10,880 bases of DNA. Origin: Candidatus Helarchaeota archaeon. Its GTDB lineage: Archaea; Asgardarchaeota; Lokiarchaeia; Helarchaeales; HEL-GB-A. The DNA lies in assembly GCA_016840125.1 (NCBI GenBank), contig JAEOSY010000209.1, forward strand, positions 1-10,880, given 5' to 3'. The position numbers and the translations under genes are program-made. Of the stretch, positions 1,581 through 10,473 are shown in pieces. The notes below the pieces were generated by a model. It searched no databases. It saw only the letters and a list, made by a program, of their open reading frames with translations, and was not told the origin of the DNA. How positions within the stretch are numbered: position 1 is the stretch's first letter; each line of letters opens with the position of its first letter.

Positions 1581-1660
1581 GAAAGGTGAGAATTGCAATT
1601 TACTTTAGTTAAAATTACAAGAAACCTTTATTCTGTTGAATTTAAGGGTGGGACTGAAAA

Positions 1661-4600
1661 ATGGTACTATTTCAGAAAAATAGATATATCAAGTATATAA
1701 TATTATTTACTTTCATTCTAAACTTATTATTTATATCCTCTTCTTTTCATCCGTTATATGATAATAATAGATCTTCTATAATGTTAGACCAGCAACTCCC
1801 TATTCAGACACTCAACTTCGCCGATACAACCTCAATGTGGAATTTCACCACCAACGCGACTATAACGGCAATCGACATGTCGGCAGATGGAAATTACATA
1901 GTCATTGGTTGTGCTACACCGGATCCAAATATTTACCTCTTTGAAACCTCTAATTCTACTCCTCTTTGGAACTTTTCCACAGGCTCTGAAGTTAATTCGG
2001 TGGCAATTTCACAGAATGGGTCTTATTTTATTGCGGGTACAGTTTCTCACATCTTTTTTTTCCACAAATCTAACTCTACTCCCCTATGGAACTACACCCC
2101 TGGTGGTGACTACTATTGGGGTACCTCTCCTATTGTGGATATTTGTGACGATGGATTCTATGCGGTTACTACTGATTACCAAGGTGAAATAATGCTTTTT
2201 AATAGAACGAGCCCAGATCCGATGTTAAGATACCATGAGGGGGGTATGACTCCCATTGGGTTTTGGTATGGAGTGGCGATCTCAGGAGATGGAACACAAT
2301 TCGTTGGAGGAGGTCAAAAGAGTTTTACCCAAGGATATGACGTACTACTGAACAGAAGCACTGAAGAATGGCAGGTTTACAGAGTTGATAATGGTGTCCC
2401 CCTGTATTTCGATATGTCTACAGATGGGCAGTATTTCGTGTCTGCAGCCACACATTTTAGTAGCATAGGTAGCTTGAGACTCTATAATAAAACTTCTAGC
2501 TCTCCGGAATGGGAATTTCCTCTCCATATCTATGGAGATTATGCATTCGATTTATCTGCCTCAGATGACTGTAGTTACATCGCGCTAATCCATGATTATA
2601 ATATAAGCCTGTTTCATCGAACAAATTCTAGTCCGTTATGGAATCATACTTTTGGTGATAGAATTCTAGACGGTAATTCTGTTGATATTTCTTCTGATGG
2701 GTCATACATTCTTTGTAGTAACTCAGGCGGTATATATTCTCTCATTCATCGAGATAATTCAACTCCCTTTTGGGAACTTAATGTAACAGGCGGATTATCT
2801 ACCAACCGCCTAGTCAGAATCTCAGGTGATGGAACCTATTTTGGGGTGACCAATGACACCCAACTTATGGTCTTCTCAAACGAGGATAAACTACCCCCTA
2901 CAATAGGTCCTCCGATAGAAGGTGTGATTAAATTAAACCAACCTGTTGTCGTTGATTTTGGAATAAGCGATTATTTCGGCATTGATAATATTATTTTTAG
3001 CTGGTCCAATAATAGCGGATTGAATTGGTATAACAATACAATAGATGGGGGCGGCAACACTGTCTGGACTGGAAATGCAACTATTCCAGGACACGTGGAA
3101 GGAACCAAAATTCTCTATCACATTTCTGCGAACGACACTTCAAATCATTGGGGGTATAATAATAATAGTGGTCTATATTTCTCATTTAACTTTTCAGATC
3201 TCGTCGCCCCCAACATTACTGGTGTTATAGGAGGCGCCAATTTACCCGATAGCCCTATTCTAATTACTACGAACGTCACAGATCTGAACAATGTCACAGA
3301 AGTCATCTTGAGTTATACTAATAATAGTGGAGTCGATTGGCATAATATCACCATGAGCGGAGTTGGAACGAGTACTTGGTCAGGCAACGGTTCAATTCCA
3401 GGGCAACCCGATGGAACAATTATCACTTACCAGCTATTTGCTCGGGATCAATCAAATAACTGGGCATTCAACAATAATAGCGGGATTGGATATACTTATA
3501 TCATTGATGTCACAGCACCGGTTATTCAAACACCGAGTACGGGGGCGACTACTCCCGATTTGCCTGTAATTCTGCATTTAGGATTAACCGATCTTATTTC
3601 AGTGGATAAGGTAATAGTGAGTTGGTCAAATGATAGTGGCATTACATGGCATAATATTACCGCCACTGGAACGGGTACATCCTCTTGGAATGGCACCGCA
3701 GTGATCCCCGCGCATCCTGAGGGAACAACTATCCTATACCAGATTTATGCTAATGATACCATGGGGCACTGGGAAAATGATGATAATGGGGGTTCATTCT
3801 TCTCATTTACATTCGAATATCCCCCACCACCCTTTCCTTTCGAAATCATCATCATCATCCTAATTGCAGCCGTTGGTGCAGCTTCCGCATACATCGTTTA
3901 TGTTAAAAGGCAACCGAAGATTCGACGCCCTGATGCCATAGGGAAATTTAGGGTGATTCCTGAAGGCGTCAAAAGTAGATTAACTATTTTAATGGAAAGT
4001 AAAGATAATTATGATATCATTTTAGAACCGCCCACAGTTGTGCGAAAGCCAATCAGCCAGCGACTTAATGTATCTGACAGCGTTTTTAAAACCATCGAGA
4101 AGGAAATCAGCTATCTCACGCATGAACTTAACAACATGCGTAAAATGGGTCCTAAACAGGAAGTGGAAGTTAAACTGAAGAAATATTCAGTAAAAGAATT
4201 ATTGAAGGAAATAGGAACTCAAATCTATTCTAATTTTATTCCAGAATCAATTAATGATAAAATAAAAGATTATAATGTTAAGACAATGGAAGTGGGAATT
4301 GATGATGATTTACTCTCCTATCCGTGGGAATTAACGTTTGACGGCGAGAACTATCTTGGAATCAAATACAGCATTGGACGTTATGTCGTTGCTGAGCGGC
4401 AATTACAACAAGCCATACCCTACGACCGAGGTATTCGGAATGGGGCGAAATTTTTAATTATAGGTGACCCGACTTCTGATAAAAAGGGATGGAAGCTCCC
4501 CGAAGCCGAAAAAGAAGCCCAATTCATTAACGACGAATTGTCAAAGATAAAGGGGGTTACTACAAAGCTCTTACTCGGAAAAGAGGCAACGATTGAGAAT

Positions 4601-5074
4601 GTTACCCGCGAATTACAAGCCGATTATGATTTTATTCACTATTCAGGTCATGCAGCCTTTGATGTTGAGGACCCTGATAATAGTGCGATTTATCTCAACG
4701 ATGGGAAATTAATGGCGAAAAAAATAAGAAAACTTCTCGGAACGACGCCCCCTATCATGGCATTTATCAACGCATGCGAATCAAGTATGATGGGCGATGC
4801 AACAGAAATTGAATTCGAGGCTAAAATTAGTGGTTTAGCTGCGTCTTTTCTCTTGAATGGTATCAACTACGTCGGGTCCATGTGGCCTATCCGTGATGAC
4901 GTTGCCTTATCAACTGCATTGAATTTCTACTTTGAGGTTCTCAGCGGTACTCCAATTGGCGAAGCTTTACGACGGGCAAAGCAATTTATTTATGAGCAGT
5001 TTGAAGGACGTGAAATGGGATGGGCATCCTATGTATTGTATGGCGACCCAACTCTGACCTTGGAACACCAATAA
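1661..5074 (+). CDS. Single-pass membrane receptor with beta-propeller, Ig-like repeats and cytoplasmic CHAT protease domain
   Basis: 1137 residues; the ATG follows GGGTGG by 8-9 bases. In order: a signal peptide or anchor (about 9-28); an eight-unit WD40/PQQ-like propeller (about 45-410), seen as eight repeats of an I-S-x-D-G-x-Y type motif alternating with STPLW-type motifs; three Ig/FN3-like repeats (412-515, 516-618, 619-723); one membrane helix (729-748) followed by KR; a helical linker with charged residues (about 770-860); and a CHAT domain (about 850-1137). The CHAT core shows PWELTFDG, FLIIGDP (931 on), HYSGH with likely catalytic His997, INACES with Cys1039, and the C-terminal YGDPTL motif. 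CHAT domains are caspase-like cysteine proteases, so extracellular recognition may trigger intracellular proteolysis. About thirty N-X-S/T sequons lie before the helix and two after, fitting an extracellular N-terminus. The ligand and substrate are unknown. It appears monocistronic, with a T12 tract after it. Confidence 0.9.
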   Translation: MVLFQKNRYIKYIILFTFILNLLFISSSFHPLYDNNRSSIMLDQQLPIQTLNFADTTSMWNFTTNATITAIDMSADGNYIVIGCATPDPNIYLFETSNSTPLWNFSTGSEVNSVAISQNGSYFIAGTVSHIFFFHKSNSTPLWNYTPGGDYYWGTSPIVDICDDGFYAVTTDYQGEIMLFNRTSPDPMLRYHEGGMTPIGFWYGVAISGDGTQFVGGGQKSFTQGYDVLLNRSTEEWQVYRVDNGVPLYFDMSTDGQYFVSAATHFSSIGSLRLYNKTSSSPEWEFPLHIYGDYAFDLSASDDCSYIALIHDYNISLFHRTNSSPLWNHTFGDRILDGNSVDISSDGSYILCSNSGGIYSLIHRDNSTPFWELNVTGGLSTNRLVRISGDGTYFGVTNDTQLMVFSNEDKLPPTIGPPIEGVIKLNQPVVVDFGISDYFGIDNIIFSWSNNSGLNWYNNTIDGGGNTVWTGNATIPGHVEGTKILYHISANDTSNHWGYNNNSGLYFSFNFSDLVAPNITGVIGGANLPDSPILITTNVTDLNNVTEVILSYTNNSGVDWHNITMSGVGTSTWSGNGSIPGQPDGTIITYQLFARDQSNNWAFNNNSGIGYTYIIDVTAPVIQTPSTGATTPDLPVILHLGLTDLISVDKVIVSWSNDSGITWHNITATGTGTSSWNGTAVIPAHPEGTTILYQIYANDTMGHWENDDNGGSFFSFTFEYPPPPFPFEIIIIILIAAVGAASAYIVYVKRQPKIRRPDAIGKFRVIPEGVKSRLTILMESKDNYDIILEPPTVVRKPISQRLNVSDSVFKTIEKEISYLTHELNNMRKMGPKQEVEVKLKKYSVKELLKEIGTQIYSNFIPESINDKIKDYNVKTMEVGIDDDLLSYPWELTFDGENYLGIKYSIGRYVVAERQLQQAIPYDRGIRNGAKFLIIGDPTSDKKGWKLPEAEKEAQFINDELSKIKGVTTKLLLGKEATIENVTRELQADYDFIHYSGHAAFDVEDPDNSAIYLNDGKLMAKKIRKLLGTTPPIMAFINACESSMMGDATEIEFEAKISGLAASFLLNGINYVGSMWPIRDDVALSTALNFYFEVLSGTPIGEALRRAKQFIYEQFEGREMGWASYVLYGDPTLTLEHQ
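2894..3829 (+). repeat. Three tandem Ig-like repeats within the CHAT receptor
   Basis: Three protein-level repeats of 103-104 residues. Each opens with a Pro-rich turn (PPTI, APNI, APVI) and shares SWSNNSG-like, W-x-N-I-T, a W-x-G/N-N/G turn, IPGH-like, and a Y-x-I/L-x-A-x-D motif near the end. The final copy runs into a proline-rich junction (PPPPFPF) and the membrane helix. They look like beta-sandwich stalk domains that lift the propeller off the cell surface. The repeats are diverged at DNA level, so the duplication is not recent. Confidence 0.75.
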
Positions 5075-5100: not shown

Positions 5101-5112
5101 TTTTTTTTTTTT
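5101..5112 (+). terminator. Oligo-T terminator after the CHAT gene
   Basis: An unbroken run of twelve T lies 27 bases after the stop codon, with further T-rich stretches behind it (5121-5132). Oligo-T tracts on the coding strand are the standard intrinsic termination signal in archaea. It separates the CHAT gene from the following seven-helix pair. Confidence 0.7.
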
Positions 5113-5297: not shown

Positions 5298-6428
5298 CTG
5301 GAACTTATTGTAATTTTGGCGGTTATTTCGGTAATAGCAAGTGCCCTTTTAACGCTGCGAGTTTGGCGTCTTTATACGCAGAAGATCACAGAAATAAATA
5401 AAATTCTAGTATTCTCCATAACCGCCTTCACCTTTACTATATTATTTGAAAGTTATAGACTGCTAGCTTTTAACTATATTGGTCCAATAGATGATTTTTC
5501 TTACCAATTATATTTTATCATAAGCGTTTTTCTGATTCTTTTCGCAGTATCAATTGGTCTCCGAGCGGTTTTCATCTTAAACCGACAGAGTGGACATCCT
5601 ATCAAACATGAGGTGACTATAAGGGCAATAATAACTGTTTTATTTATTTCCATTTCTCTAATCAATGTATTCACCTCCGATCCAACGTCCCCCAATGAGC
5701 TCGGACTCATCTCTTACCAGATGGATCCAATCTTGGCGTACATCATGATTCTTCTCTACTTGCCCGTTCTCTTTTACGTAATTACTAAAACTCGAGTTTT
5801 TTCGAAAAAAATACAAGATAAGAAGCTATCGAAACTACTCACTCTATTTTTCACCTTTTTTCTAGGTCTATCTCTCGATAGAGGTTTTTCCATCTGCCGA
5901 TTCTCAGCATTTCCAAACACCGTGAATTCTCTTATCAGTGGCTTAGTTATACTCAATATAGTTTTATGTAGTCTCCTTGCAATCTTCTATTCAAATCCTG
6001 ATTTTTTAAATAGGATTAGTTCCTACTTTTGTGTAAAGTCGTTGTATCTCATAAAGCGAAAGGGTGGGCAAGTGATTTATCATAATCACTTTTCTGAAGA
6101 TGTGCTGGTAAAAACTTTAACCCCCAATACTTTGTTATTAGGGGGATTTATCCATGCGGTTTCTCATGGACTTAAGCAAACCCTCCGAAACGGGGGGGAA
6201 ATGGAGACCATAAAAGTTGGGGATCTAACATTAATTTTTAAAAGTGGAAAGCACATTCTTGGGTTAATTTTCGCGAACGAACCAAGCCCTATCTTACCCC
6301 TTAATCTGTTTCTTTTCATGCAACGATTTGAAACTACTTATGAATTGGAACTCGAACGCTGGAAAGGTAATCTGCGGGTTTTTGATTCACAATTGATAAA
6401 TAATTGGACTATAGAGATTTTTAGGTAA
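5298..6428 (+). CDS. Seven-helix membrane protein with C-terminal longin-like domain (first of a pair)
   Basis: 376 residues if it starts at CTG 5298, or 370 from TTG 5316. CTG is preferred: it sits 7 bases after a perfect Shine-Dalgarno, makes the first helix complete (MELIVILAVISVIA), and brings the length close to that of the following paralogue. Seven hydrophobic segments fill about residues 1-240, with a conserved SGHPIKH loop after helix 3 and NPDF after helix 7. From about 246 a soluble domain begins (KSLYLIKRKGG, VIYHNHF, LLGGFIHAVSHGLKQ, then beta strands and a long C-terminal helix), a pattern like longin/profilin-fold domains of Asgard and methanogenic archaea. Longin-like domains bind small GTPases or partner proteins, so this is probably a membrane receptor or scaffold with a docking domain. 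The fold is inferred from pattern, not proven. It overlaps the next gene by one base (TAATG), or ends 5 bases before the preferred ATG. Confidence 0.75.
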   Translation: MELIVILAVISVIASALLTLRVWRLYTQKITEINKILVFSITAFTFTILFESYRLLAFNYIGPIDDFSYQLYFIISVFLILFAVSIGLRAVFILNRQSGHPIKHEVTIRAIITVLFISISLINVFTSDPTSPNELGLISYQMDPILAYIMILLYLPVLFYVITKTRVFSKKIQDKKLSKLLTLFFTFFLGLSLDRGFSICRFSAFPNTVNSLISGLVILNIVLCSLLAIFYSNPDFLNRISSYFCVKSLYLIKRKGGQVIYHNHFSEDVLVKTLTPNTLLLGGFIHAVSHGLKQTLRNGGEMETIKVGDLTLIFKSGKHILGLIFANEPSPILPLNLFLFMQRFETTYELELERWKGNLRVFDSQLINNWTIEIFR

Positions 6429-6433
6429 TGTGG

Positions 6434-7558
6434 ATGTTTGATAATACCATAATTATATTAGCGATTTTAGCTTCTATCTTCATTCCGCTATTACTCCTAC
6501 GTTACCTCCTGTACCATCTAAAATATGGCTCGAAACTAACCCGCTACATGTTAATGGCTCTTGGAGGGTTTGGTTTAGGTATCATATATACCTCGTTCAG
6601 AATTATACATTTCCAATTTTTCGGCCCTGTAGATGTACTAATTGATGTATTTGGATTTCAAATCTCTGTCTTTCTTTCTCTGCTCAGCATGTATGCGATC
6701 TTACGAATATTCCTAGTCATAAGTAAACGAAGTGGTCATCCAATAAAAAGAGCGAATTACATTAGGCTCCTCTACATGCTCTTTGTGATAATTTTCAGCA
6801 CCTTGAATTTAATAAAATACAGTAGATCAGACACAACAATTTCTGAATATTATATTTACCACGTTGATCCAGTGTTGAATTTGCTCGTACTCGCAGCTTA
6901 TATTCCAATTATGCTCTTCCTGATCATCACTGCCAAAAATGTCCTCACACAAATTAACAACCGAAAATTGATAGTGCAAACTTTACTCTTAGGTTTTATG
7001 TTGTTTGTTCTAGTAATAGAACGCGCTTATAACTTAGGATACAATTATTCAAAACTATTCTTTACTGTCACCGCCGACGTCCTTCTTTTGGACTTCATAG
7101 CAATAACTTTTCTCTGGATTTTCGGATTAACCGTTGTCCTCGTTGATCCCGGGTTTGTAGAGACTTTCAACGCCCATTTCGCTCTCCAATCTCTCTATTT
7201 AATGCGAAAGGAAGGGGGTGAGATTCTTTACCATCATGAATTTGGAGAATCTTCAGTAGAAGCGGACCGCTTCTTACTGGGTGGGTTCGTTTATGCAATG
7301 TCTAGTGGATTAAAACAACTCTTAGCAGCAAAGCCCTCAGTTGAAACTATAGAGCTTGGCTCTCTTACGATCCTCTTCACCCATGGTAATCATGTATTAG
7401 GAGTTTTATTTGTAATAGAAAACATTCCTCTCCTAAAAACACGCTTGAACACGTTTTTAGAACAGGTTGAACATCTTTACGAACGTTCTGGGGATGAGAC
7501 CGCGGAACCATTAATTAATCAGGAACTGTTTAATGATTTGATTCAAGAAAATTTTTGA
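6434..7558 (+). CDS. Seven-helix membrane protein with C-terminal longin-like domain (second of a pair)
   Basis: 374 residues from ATG 6434. An in-frame ATG at 6428 (376 residues) overlaps the previous stop, but the AGGT Shine-Dalgarno at 6423-6426 is only 1 base from it and 7 from the ATG at 6434. The latter also aligns better with the paralogue's N-terminus. Shared with the first protein: seven hydrophobic segments, an SGHPIKR loop after helix 3, a DP-x-L motif before helix 5, DPGF after helix 7, then QSLYLMRKEGG, ILYHHEF and LLGGFVYAMSSGLKQ of a longin-like soluble domain (about 248-360). Coupling and similar size suggest the two products form a heterodimer or a two-subunit receptor. Helix 7 lacks a retinal-binding lysine, so it is not a rhodopsin. 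The ligand and partner are unknown. It converges on the oxidoreductase gene with a 12-base gap and no clear terminator between. Confidence 0.8.
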   Translation: MFDNTIIILAILASIFIPLLLLRYLLYHLKYGSKLTRYMLMALGGFGLGIIYTSFRIIHFQFFGPVDVLIDVFGFQISVFLSLLSMYAILRIFLVISKRSGHPIKRANYIRLLYMLFVIIFSTLNLIKYSRSDTTISEYYIYHVDPVLNLLVLAAYIPIMLFLIITAKNVLTQINNRKLIVQTLLLGFMLFVLVIERAYNLGYNYSKLFFTVTADVLLLDFIAITFLWIFGLTVVLVDPGFVETFNAHFALQSLYLMRKEGGEILYHHEFGESSVEADRFLLGGFVYAMSSGLKQLLAAKPSVETIELGSLTILFTHGNHVLGVLFVIENIPLLKTRLNTFLEQVEHLYERSGDETAEPLINQELFNDLIQENF

Positions 7559-7570
7559 TAATTCTGGGGA

Positions 7571-8809
7571 TCAGATTTTCATCCTCTTAACAACCCCATC
7601 CGCATCAATTGATTCAATAATAAGGGGCGATTTCTTCTCCTCGACTTGGTCATCGATATCGAGCGCTTTTTTCATTAGATCGAGGAACGAATAGACATTA
7701 ACACATGCCTCTGGCGGTACCACACCTCTTTCCTTCACCTTTCCCTGTTGAATTAATACCGCTCCAAGAGCTGCAGGAAAGCCTGTACCCATTCCTAACC
7801 CCTGTCCCTTTCCTACCCCTTCCGAAACGAGTGAAAAGATGTAGGATTGTTCTTTTCCTTTTCTGGTTTTTCCCTTACAAACGATTTTTACGCAGCCGCG
7901 TGGTTCCTGGTCACTTTCTTGACTGATAAATTCGTCACGCTTCTTGATCAAATAGGCAATCGCGAAATTGTAGGGCGTGACTTTTTGCCCCTCCACTTCT
8001 ACTGGGTCCGTAGAATCCAAACCGAGCGAATGGATGGTACGGGTGAGGTCGTAATATTGTTCTGGGAGGACTGTCCCTTTGTTAGTTACTCGTTTCAACC
8101 CCTTTGCCTTCAGAAACATTGGTAATGTGATCGGTTCGGGGTGTGGATAGGGATATACTCGATATTTCCCTTTTAAATTGATAAATTCCACTTCTTCTTC
8201 ATACGTCGCGCTATCTTTCTGCGCTACTAACTTTGCCTCTCCATTGATAAAGATCGGAATGGGATTACTCATGCAATAAAAGCGATGCCCGATGACTCCG
8301 GGGCCCTCCGATGGTTCAAATCCATGAGCATGAAACATATCAATCGATTCACACTCATACAATAATTCTTTCGCTGCAAAAGCCGCAAGCAGGTTAGTAA
8401 CACCCGGAGAGGATCCCATGCCGATTAAAGCGGTAATTCCCGCCTCTTTCGCCTTTTGATCCATCTCGAGTGCATCATAGGTTGCGCCTGTATCATCATT
8501 AACATCAACATAGTTCATCCCTAATTCGATAACTGAGGAGAGGATCGGTTTCTCATATTGATAATATGGGCCCACAGTATTCAAAACTACATCGCTACCC
8601 TTGATTGCGGCCTTAATACTCGAAATATCGTTTGCATCAAACTTAATCACAGTCACATGTGCTCCGAATTTCTTCGCTAATTCTTCTGCAGCAGCCAAAT
8701 TATAATCCGCAACTACAACTTCTGAAAAAACCTCTTTTTGACTAGCAAGTAGTTGTACGGCGGCTGATCCAACAACGCCCGCACCACCTAATACTATTAT
8801 TTTCGCCAT
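7571..8809 (-). CDS. Saccharopine dehydrogenase-like NAD(P)-dependent oxidoreductase
   Basis: 412 residues; ATG at 8809-8807 with AAGGT ending 7 bases upstream. The N-terminal Rossmann fold shows GGAGVVG (8-14) and an acidic residue after the second strand (Asp35, in VVVADYN), which favours NAD over NADP. Family motifs follow: NTVGPYYQYEKP, NYVDVNDD, and GMGSSPGVTN, then an alpha/beta catalytic lobe and a late glycine-rich segment (GKGQGLGMGTGFPAA). The length fits bacterial and archaeal saccharopine dehydrogenase family proteins, which act on amino-acid-derived imines (for example in lysine or polyamine metabolism). Many members have no assigned substrate, so no gene symbol is given. It has 46 bases to the toxin gene upstream and could be read through from it, though AT-rich sequence there may hold its own promoter. 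No functional tie to the receptor genes is evident. Confidence 0.85.
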   Translation of the reverse strand: MAKIIVLGGAGVVGSAAVQLLASQKEVFSEVVVADYNLAAAEELAKKFGAHVTVIKFDANDISSIKAAIKGSDVVLNTVGPYYQYEKPILSSVIELGMNYVDVNDDTGATYDALEMDQKAKEAGITALIGMGSSPGVTNLLAAFAAKELLYECESIDMFHAHGFEPSEGPGVIGHRFYCMSNPIPIFINGEAKLVAQKDSATYEEEVEFINLKGKYRVYPYPHPEPITLPMFLKAKGLKRVTNKGTVLPEQYYDLTRTIHSLGLDSTDPVEVEGQKVTPYNFAIAYLIKKRDEFISQESDQEPRGCVKIVCKGKTRKGKEQSYIFSLVSEGVGKGQGLGMGTGFPAALGAVLIQQGKVKERGVVPPEACVNVYSFLDLMKKALDIDDQVEEKKSPLIIESIDADGVVKRMKI

Positions 8810-8855: not shown

Positions 8856-9197
8856 TTATTTTAATAATTTTTTCTCAATCAATTTCATAATATCACTGAT
8901 ATTAGTTTCATAGGATTCCTCAATGTCAGGAGTGTGTTTATGATGGGGAAAAGTCTTCAATTTTTTATAATGAGGTGAATTATCCCATCTAATAATCATT
9001 TTTCCCTTAGGATCTTGCCAATGATATGAATAAGCATGTTCCGTAGAGGAAACATATTCTCTAATGAAAAGGATGGTTGAATTAATTAAAATTAATTTCG
9101 CTTTGTAATAATAAAAATTCGATCCAGAATTAAAATCAGTAAATTCAAAATTCTTGATTATTTCGCTCTCTTTAAACAACCTGGATATCTTTTGCAT
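8856..9197 (-). CDS. TumE/DUF6516-family toxin
   Basis: 113 residues from ATG 9197-9195; a longer 117-residue form from 9209 is possible. The sequence carries the marks of the TumE (DUF6516) family: YYYKAKLIL near 29-37, FIREYVS, YSYHWQD (56-62), IIRWDNSPHY (68-77), FPHHKH (83-88) and a C-terminal helix starting after E-S-x-x-T. The family holds small toxins of type II toxin-antitoxin systems found in archaea and bacteria; TumE is reported to act on RNA/translation, but the mechanism is not readable here. The start lies inside the upstream gene, a 26-base overlap in a different frame, as expected for a coupled toxin-antitoxin operon. The clustered conserved His/Tyr/Trp/Asp residues are likely catalytic or RNA-binding. 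No membrane helix or signal is present. Confidence 0.75.
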   Translation of the reverse strand: MQKISRLFKESEIIKNFEFTDFNSGSNFYYYKAKLILINSTILFIREYVSSTEHAYSYHWQDPKGKMIIRWDNSPHYKKLKTFPHHKHTPDIEESYETNISDIMKLIEKKLLK

Positions 9198-9441
9198 TTT
9201 CAATTTCATCTAATTTGGTTTTTAGATCTTTTATCGCCTCGACAGTAGCCTTCCATTCAATATAATCATCCCACTCCTCAAAATTCTCTTGTTTATTCTT
9301 CATAGATTCATTAAAATCTTCTATAGAGGCGCCATACTTGTTCTCAAAAAGGATATTCTTTTCGTTTAGTAATGTTATTTGTGATTTTATTTTCATTTTT
9401 TCATATTCCTTTATCTCATCTTTCGAAATTTTAATGCTCAT
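9172..9441 (-). CDS. Small antitoxin-like partner of the TumE toxin
   Basis: 89 residues from ATG 9441-9439, charged and mostly helical. Two features recall proteins usually encoded next to DUF6516/TumE toxins in archaea: a KYG-x-S-x-E-D-F stretch (35-43) and a WDDYIEW segment (57-63) followed by a coiled-coil-like tail (64-82). No DNA-binding helix-turn-helix is clear, though the N-terminal 30 residues could form one helix of a dimer. It is the first gene of the pair and overlaps the toxin by 26 bases, the usual antitoxin-first order. Its Shine-Dalgarno is weak. The antitoxin role rests on context and a remembered family pattern, not on a database search. Confidence 0.65.
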   Translation of the reverse strand: MSIKISKDEIKEYEKMKIKSQITLLNEKNILFENKYGASIEDFNESMKNKQENFEEWDDYIEWKATVEAIKDLKTKLDEIENAKDIQVV

Positions 9442-9588: not shown

Positions 9589-10473
9589 ATGTCAAATAAT
9601 AAAACACCGACAGCCAATACGGAGCCAGATGCGATTTTGGAATATCTCTTTGTCGAGAAGGATTATAATCAAGAAGCACCAGTCAAATATAACGTAGGCA
9701 CATTTTATGATTCAATCGATTTATACTTTACAGGATCCCGGAAAAATACTGACTTTGCTACGTTTAGCAAATTACTACCTCTCATAATTCGGGCTAGGGC
9801 TGATGAACTGATCTATTTTGAAGACAGGGAAATTAATTTACACGATTATAAATATGGTGTGCTTGAGGAAGATAAAATAATCACTGAGTTTGATACTGTG
9901 GATGAAACATTCTTCACCGCCCTTAAAAAAACCCTGAAATTAATCATCTTTGGAAAGGAGTTCGACTTAGAGCAATTTAAAACTCATAAGGTCTTTGACG
10001 ATTTTTACAATTTTGTTCATGGAATCTTTGACGAAGAAAAGGTAATGGATAATTTCGTGGAACCGGATGCAACGGTCGAGTATTTGTTTGTCGAGAAAGC
10101 CGAGCGGCAACTTAAAGCCATTAACGACGATCAAGGGTATATCATGGCTTACATGAATATTTTCTTCAGTGGAGAATTTACAAATAACACCCTCAAAGCT
10201 TTCAAAACCCTCTTAGTGGACGAATTAAATTTCTCACTCCATGATTCTAATTATTTCAAGAATAAATCTGTGGATTTGGATGATTATAAGCTCTATCTTA
10301 TCGATAACGATAAGGATACAACCGAGTTTGCCGTGATAGACGAGCAGTTCTATGAAGCGCTCATGAACTCACTGCGGAACTTAGTCATTGTGGGAAAAAA
10401 TTTTGATTTGGAGAAATTCAAGCACCACGAGATATTTCTGGAATGGTTTGAGAAATATTCTAATAGAATTTAA
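9589..10473 (+). CDS. Acidic cytosolic protein made of two tandem copies of an unknown domain
   Basis: 294 residues; the ATG is 6 bases after a strong GGGTGA. No signal peptide or membrane helix is visible. The protein is an internal duplication: residues 12-157 and 158-293 align at a period of 146. Each half begins EPDA-x-x-EYLFVEK, has a middle strand pattern (DLYFTG / NIFFSG), then a DL/LHDYK-x-Y segment, TEF-x-x-ID/VDE-x-F, and ends GK-x-FDLE-x-FK-x-H-x-(V/I)F. Asp and Glu outnumber Lys and Arg. I do not recognise the family. The conserved acidic, aromatic motifs could be a protein-binding surface, and the two halves may form an intramolecular pseudo-dimer. It stands between a toxin-antitoxin pair and an unidentified downstream gene on the same strand, with no clear operon link. 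Confidence 0.8.
   Translation: MSNNKTPTANTEPDAILEYLFVEKDYNQEAPVKYNVGTFYDSIDLYFTGSRKNTDFATFSKLLPLIIRARADELIYFEDREINLHDYKYGVLEEDKIITEFDTVDETFFTALKKTLKLIIFGKEFDLEQFKTHKVFDDFYNFVHGIFDEEKVMDNFVEPDATVEYLFVEKAERQLKAINDDQGYIMAYMNIFFSGEFTNNTLKAFKTLLVDELNFSLHDSNYFKNKSVDLDDYKLYLIDNDKDTTEFAVIDEQFYEALMNSLRNLVIVGKNFDLEKFKHHEIFLEWFEKYSNRI
9622..10470 (+). repeat. Tandem domain duplication (two copies)
   Basis: Copy 1 begins at the codon for Glu12 (9622), copy 2 at Glu158 (10060). The copies share the EPDA/EYLFVEK opening and the FDLE-x-FK closing motif, but are diverged at DNA level outside these motifs, pointing to an old duplication. Confidence 0.75.

Follow-up and report, generated by a model that had tools for sequence, protein, structure and literature searches.

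A receptor-like CHAT gene in a Helarchaeota contig

We analyzed a window of 10,880 nucleotides (positions 1 to 10,880 of contig JAEOSY010000209.1, Candidatus Helarchaeota archaeon, assembly GCA_016840125.1) in which one gene encodes a receptor-like protein with a predicted CHAT protease domain, here called P0001. The open reading frame (ORF) is intact, and 1661 is the first possible start because an in-frame stop ends at 1657 (Table 1). The motif GGGTGGG lies 8 bases 5' of Met1, and Met41 has no such motif. A first-pass annotation had read the product as a signal peptide, an eight-unit propeller, three Ig-like repeats, one membrane helix and a CHAT domain with active-site motifs HYSGH and INACES. 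The reading frame, domain order and residue numbering in that description were correct, with HYSGH at 993-997 and INACES at 1036-1041. Its interpretation, a surface-triggered protease with the logic of a death receptor, was supported as to topology, dyad, fold and the presence of the layout in relatives; the death pathway was not.

Table 1. Features of the P0001 gene and its flanks (positions are those of the window).
Feature	Residues	Coordinates	Strand	Basis
Whole gene, receptor-like CHAT protein	1-1137	1661..5074	+	intact ORF, 1137 aa, ATG start
GGGTGGG, possible ribosome-binding site for Met1		1646..1652	+	sequence
Predicted signal peptide	about 1-30	1661..1750	+	hydrophobic segment 10-28 preceded by basic residues
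Eight WD40-like units, beta-propeller	57-410	1829..2890	+	unit alignment, model m31de2d619777, Foldseek
Repeat 1	409-512	2885..3196	+	repeat alignment
Repeat 2	513-613	3197..3499	+	repeat alignment
Repeat 3	614-718	3500..3814	+	repeat alignment
Membrane helix	729-747	3845..3901	+	mean hydropathy 2.57; helix in model m42f96c2cfd4a; basic residues after
Juxtamembrane strand/helix subdomain	758-849	3932..4207	+	alignment; predicted secondary structure
CHAT domain	850-1129	4208..5047	+	Pfam PF12770, E 1.7e-31; predicted fold
His997, predicted catalytic	997	4649..4651	+	conserved H; after strand 991-996
Cys1039, predicted catalytic	1039	4775..4777	+	conserved C; after strand 1033-1038
Run of 12 T 3' of gene, possible archaeal terminator		5101..5112	+	sequence only

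Three protein searches, each scoring the 7988-7996 candidates that shared most words, yielded P0002-P0185; 183 of these are additional to P0002, the public gene call on the same contig, and not all carry a CHAT domain. The same architecture of long ectodomain, one helix and CHAT was found in four relatives, P0003, P0008, P0009 and P0012, referred to together with P0001 as the one-helix proteins.

The CHAT domain and its orientation

The HMM match of the CHAT region of P0001 to PF12770 scored 110.2 bits against a cut-off of 24. The dyad His and Cys are conserved in 42 of 44 rows of CHAT alignment A2 and intact in all five one-helix proteins. In model m42f96c2cfd4a, the predicted fold is of the caspase/separase type, including the half that precedes the active part, and His997 and Cys1039 each stand directly after a strand. 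The least certain part of this model is the loop behind Cys1039 (1041-1047, pLDDT [predicted local distance difference test] < 50). The juxtamembrane subdomain starts with P-K-S-[IV]-G-K-[FY] in the four one-helix relatives and with P-D-A-I-G-K-F in P0001. Three further relatives without a helix, P0004, P0099 and P0100, carry two CHAT copies, the second of which lacks the His and Cys (HYCGN; NARE or NAEE) and is likely a pseudoprotease.

Hydrophobic segments and helices were called by a simple hydropathy rule made for this analysis (mean of at least 1.7). Segment 729-747 is the sole strong internal one in P0001; a second, at 636-654, reaches only 1.51. The hydrophobic run of residues 1-40 was equalled in 508 of 20,000 shuffles of those residues, so their order is only mildly unusual for the composition. 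An N-terminal hydrophobic stretch also passes the rule in P0003, P0009 and P0012, and that of P0008 is similar by eye, shorter and below the rule. Subject to the question of the start site taken up below, a predicted signal peptide and one predicted membrane helix stand as first described.

The 15 residues before the helix of P0001 contain no K/R and 2 D/E, and the 15 after it contain 6 K/R and 1 D/E. In P0003, P0008, P0009 and P0012 the corresponding stretch behind the helix holds 5-6 K/R and no D/E, so the charge bias is present in 5 of 5 one-helix proteins. In the 698-residue ectodomain of P0001, N-X-S/T sites number 34; shuffling gives 11.6 on average and reached 34 in 0 of 5,000 shuffles. 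The 387-residue cytosolic part harbors 2, against 1.8 when shuffled. These biases argue for the single-pass topology first proposed, and we consider it very probable that the CHAT domain faces the cytosol.

The ectodomain of P0001 begins with a propeller, and the claim of eight units held up: eight WD40-like units could be aligned, and the modelled propeller matched WD40 propellers in Foldseek (5yzv, E 1.9e-15). The model of residues 1-750 (14 sequences; mean pLDDT 59.3) is confident only over most of residues ~60-410. The Pfam scan contained propeller matches, but all were below the cut-off. Three repeats do follow, at 409-718, with pairwise identities of 38, 43 and 46%. Their Ig-like fold is a guess, because the model is worthless in this region (pLDDT about 30) and the Pfam scan of it gave no Ig family.

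Relatives and spread of the layout

A related layout occurs in P0138, P0140, P0141 and P0142, in which propeller-type repeats are followed by one or more internal hydrophobic segments (two in 3 of the 4) and then CHAT; P0141 is named from Theionarchaea archaeon DG-70. We left P0093 and P0184 out of the count of ectodomain-helix-CHAT proteins, their single weak segment (1.87 and 1.91) lying far ahead of CHAT. In many other relatives, several of them named as bacterial, CHAT precedes a hydrophobic segment, and in some a cyclase stands ahead of CHAT. No hydrophobic segment is present in P0004, P0006 and P0180, the closest CHAT relatives that lack an ectodomain, and the propeller proteins P0005, P0007 and P0015 have a related ectodomain and a C-terminal helix and no CHAT. 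CHAT relatives are named from Hermodarchaeota (P0004), Lokiarchaeia (P0180, L001) and Helarchaeota (L002, L003).

Scanning genome contigs with P0001 alone gave no relatives, and scanning them with alignment A1 gave three Asgard loci. In a set of 227 Asgard genomes, defined by the phylum of a Lokiarchaeota metagenome-assembled genome (MAG), we used a CHAT family search in place of a whole-alignment search, which the ectodomain repeats had swamped (at most 3 candidates scored per genome). At E 1e-6 there were 55 CHAT matches in 35 of the 227 genomes, and 1 of 14 control genomes matched. Seven of the 55 ORFs are open at the 5' end of their contig. Start and pre-CHAT stretches were read in 11, including all 7 open ones, and revealed no one-helix receptor layout. 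Hydrophobic segments (at least 1.7) precede CHAT in five of the ORFs: in L097 and L104 they form the cut start of an open frame, in L089 and L121 they are deep and no N-terminal stretch is present, and the fifth is L122. A longer L104 or L097 may have the receptor layout. L122, a 325-aa ORF of genome G184, has an N-terminal hydrophobic stretch followed directly by a weak CHAT match with HVAAH and LSAC, and is possibly a secreted or outward-facing CHAT protein.

CHAT was also seen in other company. At L002:4077-5738 (+) in Helarchaeota, a Ras-type GTPase is fused to CHAT (Ras E 5.6e-32, CHAT E 1.2e-30); P0181 has the same two domains in its precomputed Pfam list, and L080, from genome G003 (that of Helarchaeota L003), falls on the same tree branch as these fusion proteins. 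The protein at Helarchaeota L003:326-3223 (+) combines an IFT52 GIFT-like domain, a PCMT methyltransferase and CHAT, and P0021, P0102, P0104 and similar proteins have a cyclase domain, CHAT, a hydrophobic segment and tetratricopeptide repeats (TPRs) on one chain. Near the CHAT gene of the Lokiarchaeota MAG, L001:4261-6285 (-) reads by eye, with masked stretches, like a secreted caspase-type domain, and its translation appears to contain calcium-type repeats and a C-terminal helix. Six matches came from a viral library at E <= 0.001. The strongest had E 1.2e-6, the remaining ones were to caspases or metacaspases of large viruses, and every one was weaker than the matches in the PDB.

Discordant histories of the two halves

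The five one-helix proteins have three types of ectodomain, between which BLAST of the full ectodomains gave no match at E 1e-3. P0001 (WD40-like propeller and repeats) represents the first, P0003 and P0009 (LVIVD repeats, 78% identical over 1075 columns) the second, and P0008 and P0012 (repeats without a Pfam match, 46% identical over 463) the third. When the comparison was confined to the C-terminal 330 residues of the ectodomains, P0008 and P0009 showed a single weak match (E 4e-4). Among the cytosolic halves, identity is 39-55% for each of the ten pairs. In 50-column windows, the identity between P0003 and P0009 ranges from 52 to 92% (about 80% in most windows) between residue 42 and the membrane; past the membrane the range is 34-55%, save in the last two windows (70 and 63%).

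We built a midpoint-rooted tree of 45 CHAT modules, which includes rows of uneven composition and long branches. P0009 paired with P0012 (100/99), not with P0003. Forcing P0003 with P0009 cost 61 log units (approximately unbiased [AU] test, p 5.4e-4), and forcing P0008 with P0012 cost 40 (p 1.2e-5); the tested pairs were defined by ectodomain but chosen after the tree was seen. In these comparisons the two halves have discordant histories. Because P0009 and P0012 are each represented by one member sequence, misassembly could have created the joins, and an in-frame join at the membrane boundary from such an error is unlikely.

The five one-helix proteins and P0004, P0099 and P0100 form one branch (94/93). 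As to a single origin of the layout, the best tree nests these three helix-less proteins among the five, and a constraint holding the five together was not rejected (p 0.228). The group of P0138 and P0140-P0142 lies elsewhere on a long branch, so its layout is probably separate in origin. These data point, if only tentatively and at somewhat less than even probability, to a family of modular surface receptors in Asgard archaea and relatives, in which interchangeable ectodomains would have been joined by recombination, at the membrane, to a cytosolic protease of separase-like type, with a distant archaeal group arriving independently at propeller, helix and CHAT. With such a family, prokaryotes would have a counterpart of receptor-coupled caspase signalling, its inputs and outputs shuffled in the manner of immune receptors.

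Comparison with known systems

The best Foldseek matches of the CHAT model were Csx29/TPR-CHAT of type III-E CRISPR systems. PMC10028731 and PMC9729208 describe the same CHAT fold with a pseudo-caspase and an active-caspase half, and the His and Cys of the dyad are likewise 42-43 residues apart. In those accounts Csx29 has TPRs, is part of the soluble Cas7-11 complex and is switched by target RNA, and activation remodels the dyad-carrying loops; for TPR-CHAT the reported separation of His and Cys is about 7 A when inactive and 3 A when active (PMC9729208). P0001 differs in having a membrane helix and an ectodomain, and no TPR family is among its 12 whole-protein Pfam matches (E <= 0.1). Pfam matched no CRISPR-type family in the ten window ORFs.

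By Z score, the closest fold is eukaryotic separase (25.3, 5fby), with TPR-CHAT next at 23.8; identity in the listed separase alignments is 13-17%. Separase is regulated by securin (PMC9729208). Descent from a common ancestor with separase was considered on the basis of sequence and dropped: profiles A2 and A4 matched no separase in the PDB set, A2 being swamped by TPRs and A4 matching solely a ciliary propeller protein (E 0.071). These profiles gave no sequence link between the P0001 family and eukaryotic separase. No known archaea are closer to eukaryotes than the Asgard group, so a separase-like protease placed in them behind putative receptors and, in Helarchaeota, behind a Ras-type GTPase bears on the origin of eukaryotic separase.

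The statement that CHAT proteins are usually cytosolic needs qualifying, since HetF, DdvA (by its entry title) and many of the relatives found here carry membrane or hydrophobic segments. HetF of filamentous cyanobacteria is described in PMC8406250 as a putative CHAT protease and membrane protein with one predicted membrane segment; its introduction reports that an active-site mutation abolishes function. Unlike P0001, HetF has CHAT at aa 1-555, then the membrane segment and TPRs, and the NCBIfam HetF model NF045509 scored 23.2 bits on P0001, below its equivalog cut-off of 1200. DdvA is known to us from the titles of cryo-EM entries 8rot and 8rw5 ('transmembrane anti-sigma factor DdvA'), with the chain named as a CHAT domain-containing protein. 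For the metacaspase-CHASE2 protein of T. erythraeum IMS101, a receptor outside and a caspase-homologue domain in the cytoplasm were inferred in 2012 (PMC3501461); it differs from P0001 in being a cyanobacterial peptidase C14 with an N-terminal protease and CHASE2 flanked by four helices. With such proteins known, the idea is itself not new. Our searches of an open-access library did not turn up a description of a propeller ectodomain on CHAT, the archaeal setting or exchange at the membrane.

Animal death receptors recruit caspases through death-fold adaptors. They share with P0001 only the logic of ectodomain, one helix and caspase-type output, since P0001 carries the protease in the same chain. 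No death-fold domain is among its 12 Pfam matches (E <= 0.1), and Pfam found no gasdermin in the ten window ORFs, leaving the suggested death pathway unsupported.

Proposed mechanism and alternatives

We think it fairly probable that P0001 is a type I membrane receptor-protease in which binding outside gates a cytosolic CHAT cysteine protease that cuts one or a few cytosolic proteins. The propeller and its stalk of repeats would stand outside the Asgard cell, binding a ligand or contacting another cell, with one helix spanning the membrane and a caspase/separase-type protease with the dyad His997/Cys1039 in the cytosol. Ligand or contact at the propeller might cluster, strain or rearrange the protein, and the helix and juxtamembrane subdomain would then move the loop behind Cys1039. 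The activated protease might then cut its substrate, and the outcome may be a stress response, death or surface remodelling. What was computed here is the order of the domains, the intactness of the dyad, the fold as predicted, the bias in charges and sequons, the presence of the layout in relatives and the discordance of the halves; activity, gating by outside binding and substrate cleavage are what we infer.

Several observations weigh against this reading. The public gene call P0002 begins at Met41, which drops the signal peptide, and topology was read from the simple hydropathy and charge rule, in place of a dedicated predictor. The excess of sequons is not shared by all one-helix proteins: 9 sites fall in the 1078 ectodomain residues of P0003 and 4 in the 1075 of P0009. 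None of the 55 Asgard CHAT ORFs, 7 of them cut at a contig end, has the order of N-terminal stretch, ectodomain, helix and CHAT. The relatives are mostly metagenome proteins, the one-helix ones having been compared as protein sequences, and a CHAT fold with a dyad could be a regulatory or structural part.

If translation began at Met41, or the N-terminal stretch were no signal peptide, CHAT could face outward as in gingipain-like secreted proteases (C25), whose protease is outside. We regard this as very unlikely: the plausible ribosome-binding site is at Met1 and none is at Met41, the charge bias recurs in every one-helix protein, the sequons crowd on the opposite side of the helix, the nearest ectodomain-less relatives have no hydrophobic segment, and one relative, from Helarchaeota, carries CHAT in fusion with a Ras-type GTPase. 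The loss of the dyad in the second CHAT copy of P0004, P0099 and P0100, inside the same branch, suggests another alternative, in which CHAT is a scaffold or pseudoprotease relaying binding through conformation only. The dyad retained by all five one-helix proteins and most aligned rows, and its position directly after strands, make this unlikely for P0001.

It is also unlikely that P0001 is a constitutive or housekeeping processing protease tethered to the membrane, with an ectodomain that holds it to the surface layer or to neighbours without signalling. The existence of the CHAT-less propeller proteins P0005, P0007 and P0015 points to the ectodomain as a possible general-purpose surface module, and a switch in P0001 is something we infer. 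However, the CHAT relative Csx29 is switched by partner binding (PMC10028731), and the occurrence of one kind of output under three types of ectodomain fits inputs that change better than an anchor that stays the same. If the receptor-protease reading is right, with an active protease controlled from outside the cell, archaea would have receptor-caspase signalling within a single protein, and animals would not be alone in surface-triggered caspase-type proteolysis. Because ectodomains appear to have been exchanged at the membrane, this reading is testable.

Genomic neighbourhood

Downstream of P0001, 5316-6428 and 6428-7558 (+) are two overlapping multi-helix ORFs without Pfam matches, 5316 being only the first possible start. 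P0187, from this pair, has matches in 84 of the 227 Asgard genomes, mostly in the C-terminal ~100 residues; matches starting within its N-terminal 10 residues are confined to G083 (five) and G084 (one). Co-transcription of the CHAT gene with 5316-7558 was considered, and the pair was treated as a separate unit in view of the T-run and the 241 bases between them. No neighbour in the window stands out as a substrate candidate, and the window has no RNA element at the gathering threshold and no tRNA. PADLOC was run on six proteins of the ten window ORFs; the CHAT protein weakly matched BovA (22.7 bits) and a SAVED_TM effector model (14.2 bits), and the other five gave no match. A defence island seems doubtful on these scans: with four proteins from outside the window included, the matches to BovA and SAVED_TM were weak and all to CHAT proteins.

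The genes upstream, which point away from P0001, encode a PadR-type regulator and a HAAS/permease-prefix protein. A saccharopine-dehydrogenase-like gene and a TumE-type toxin gene follow at greater distance. Residues 1-381 of the former product are 76% identical to a protein in G003, and 72 of 227 genomes match it at E 1e-40. Together with the sources of the CHAT relatives, this marks the contig as archaeal and most likely Asgard. At 9589-10473 (+), a 294-aa protein without a Pfam match appears by eye to contain two copies of one domain. The TumE-type gene (8856-9441, -; E 1.7e-23) overlaps a small ORF, without a family match at the gathering cut-off, that could encode the antitoxin.

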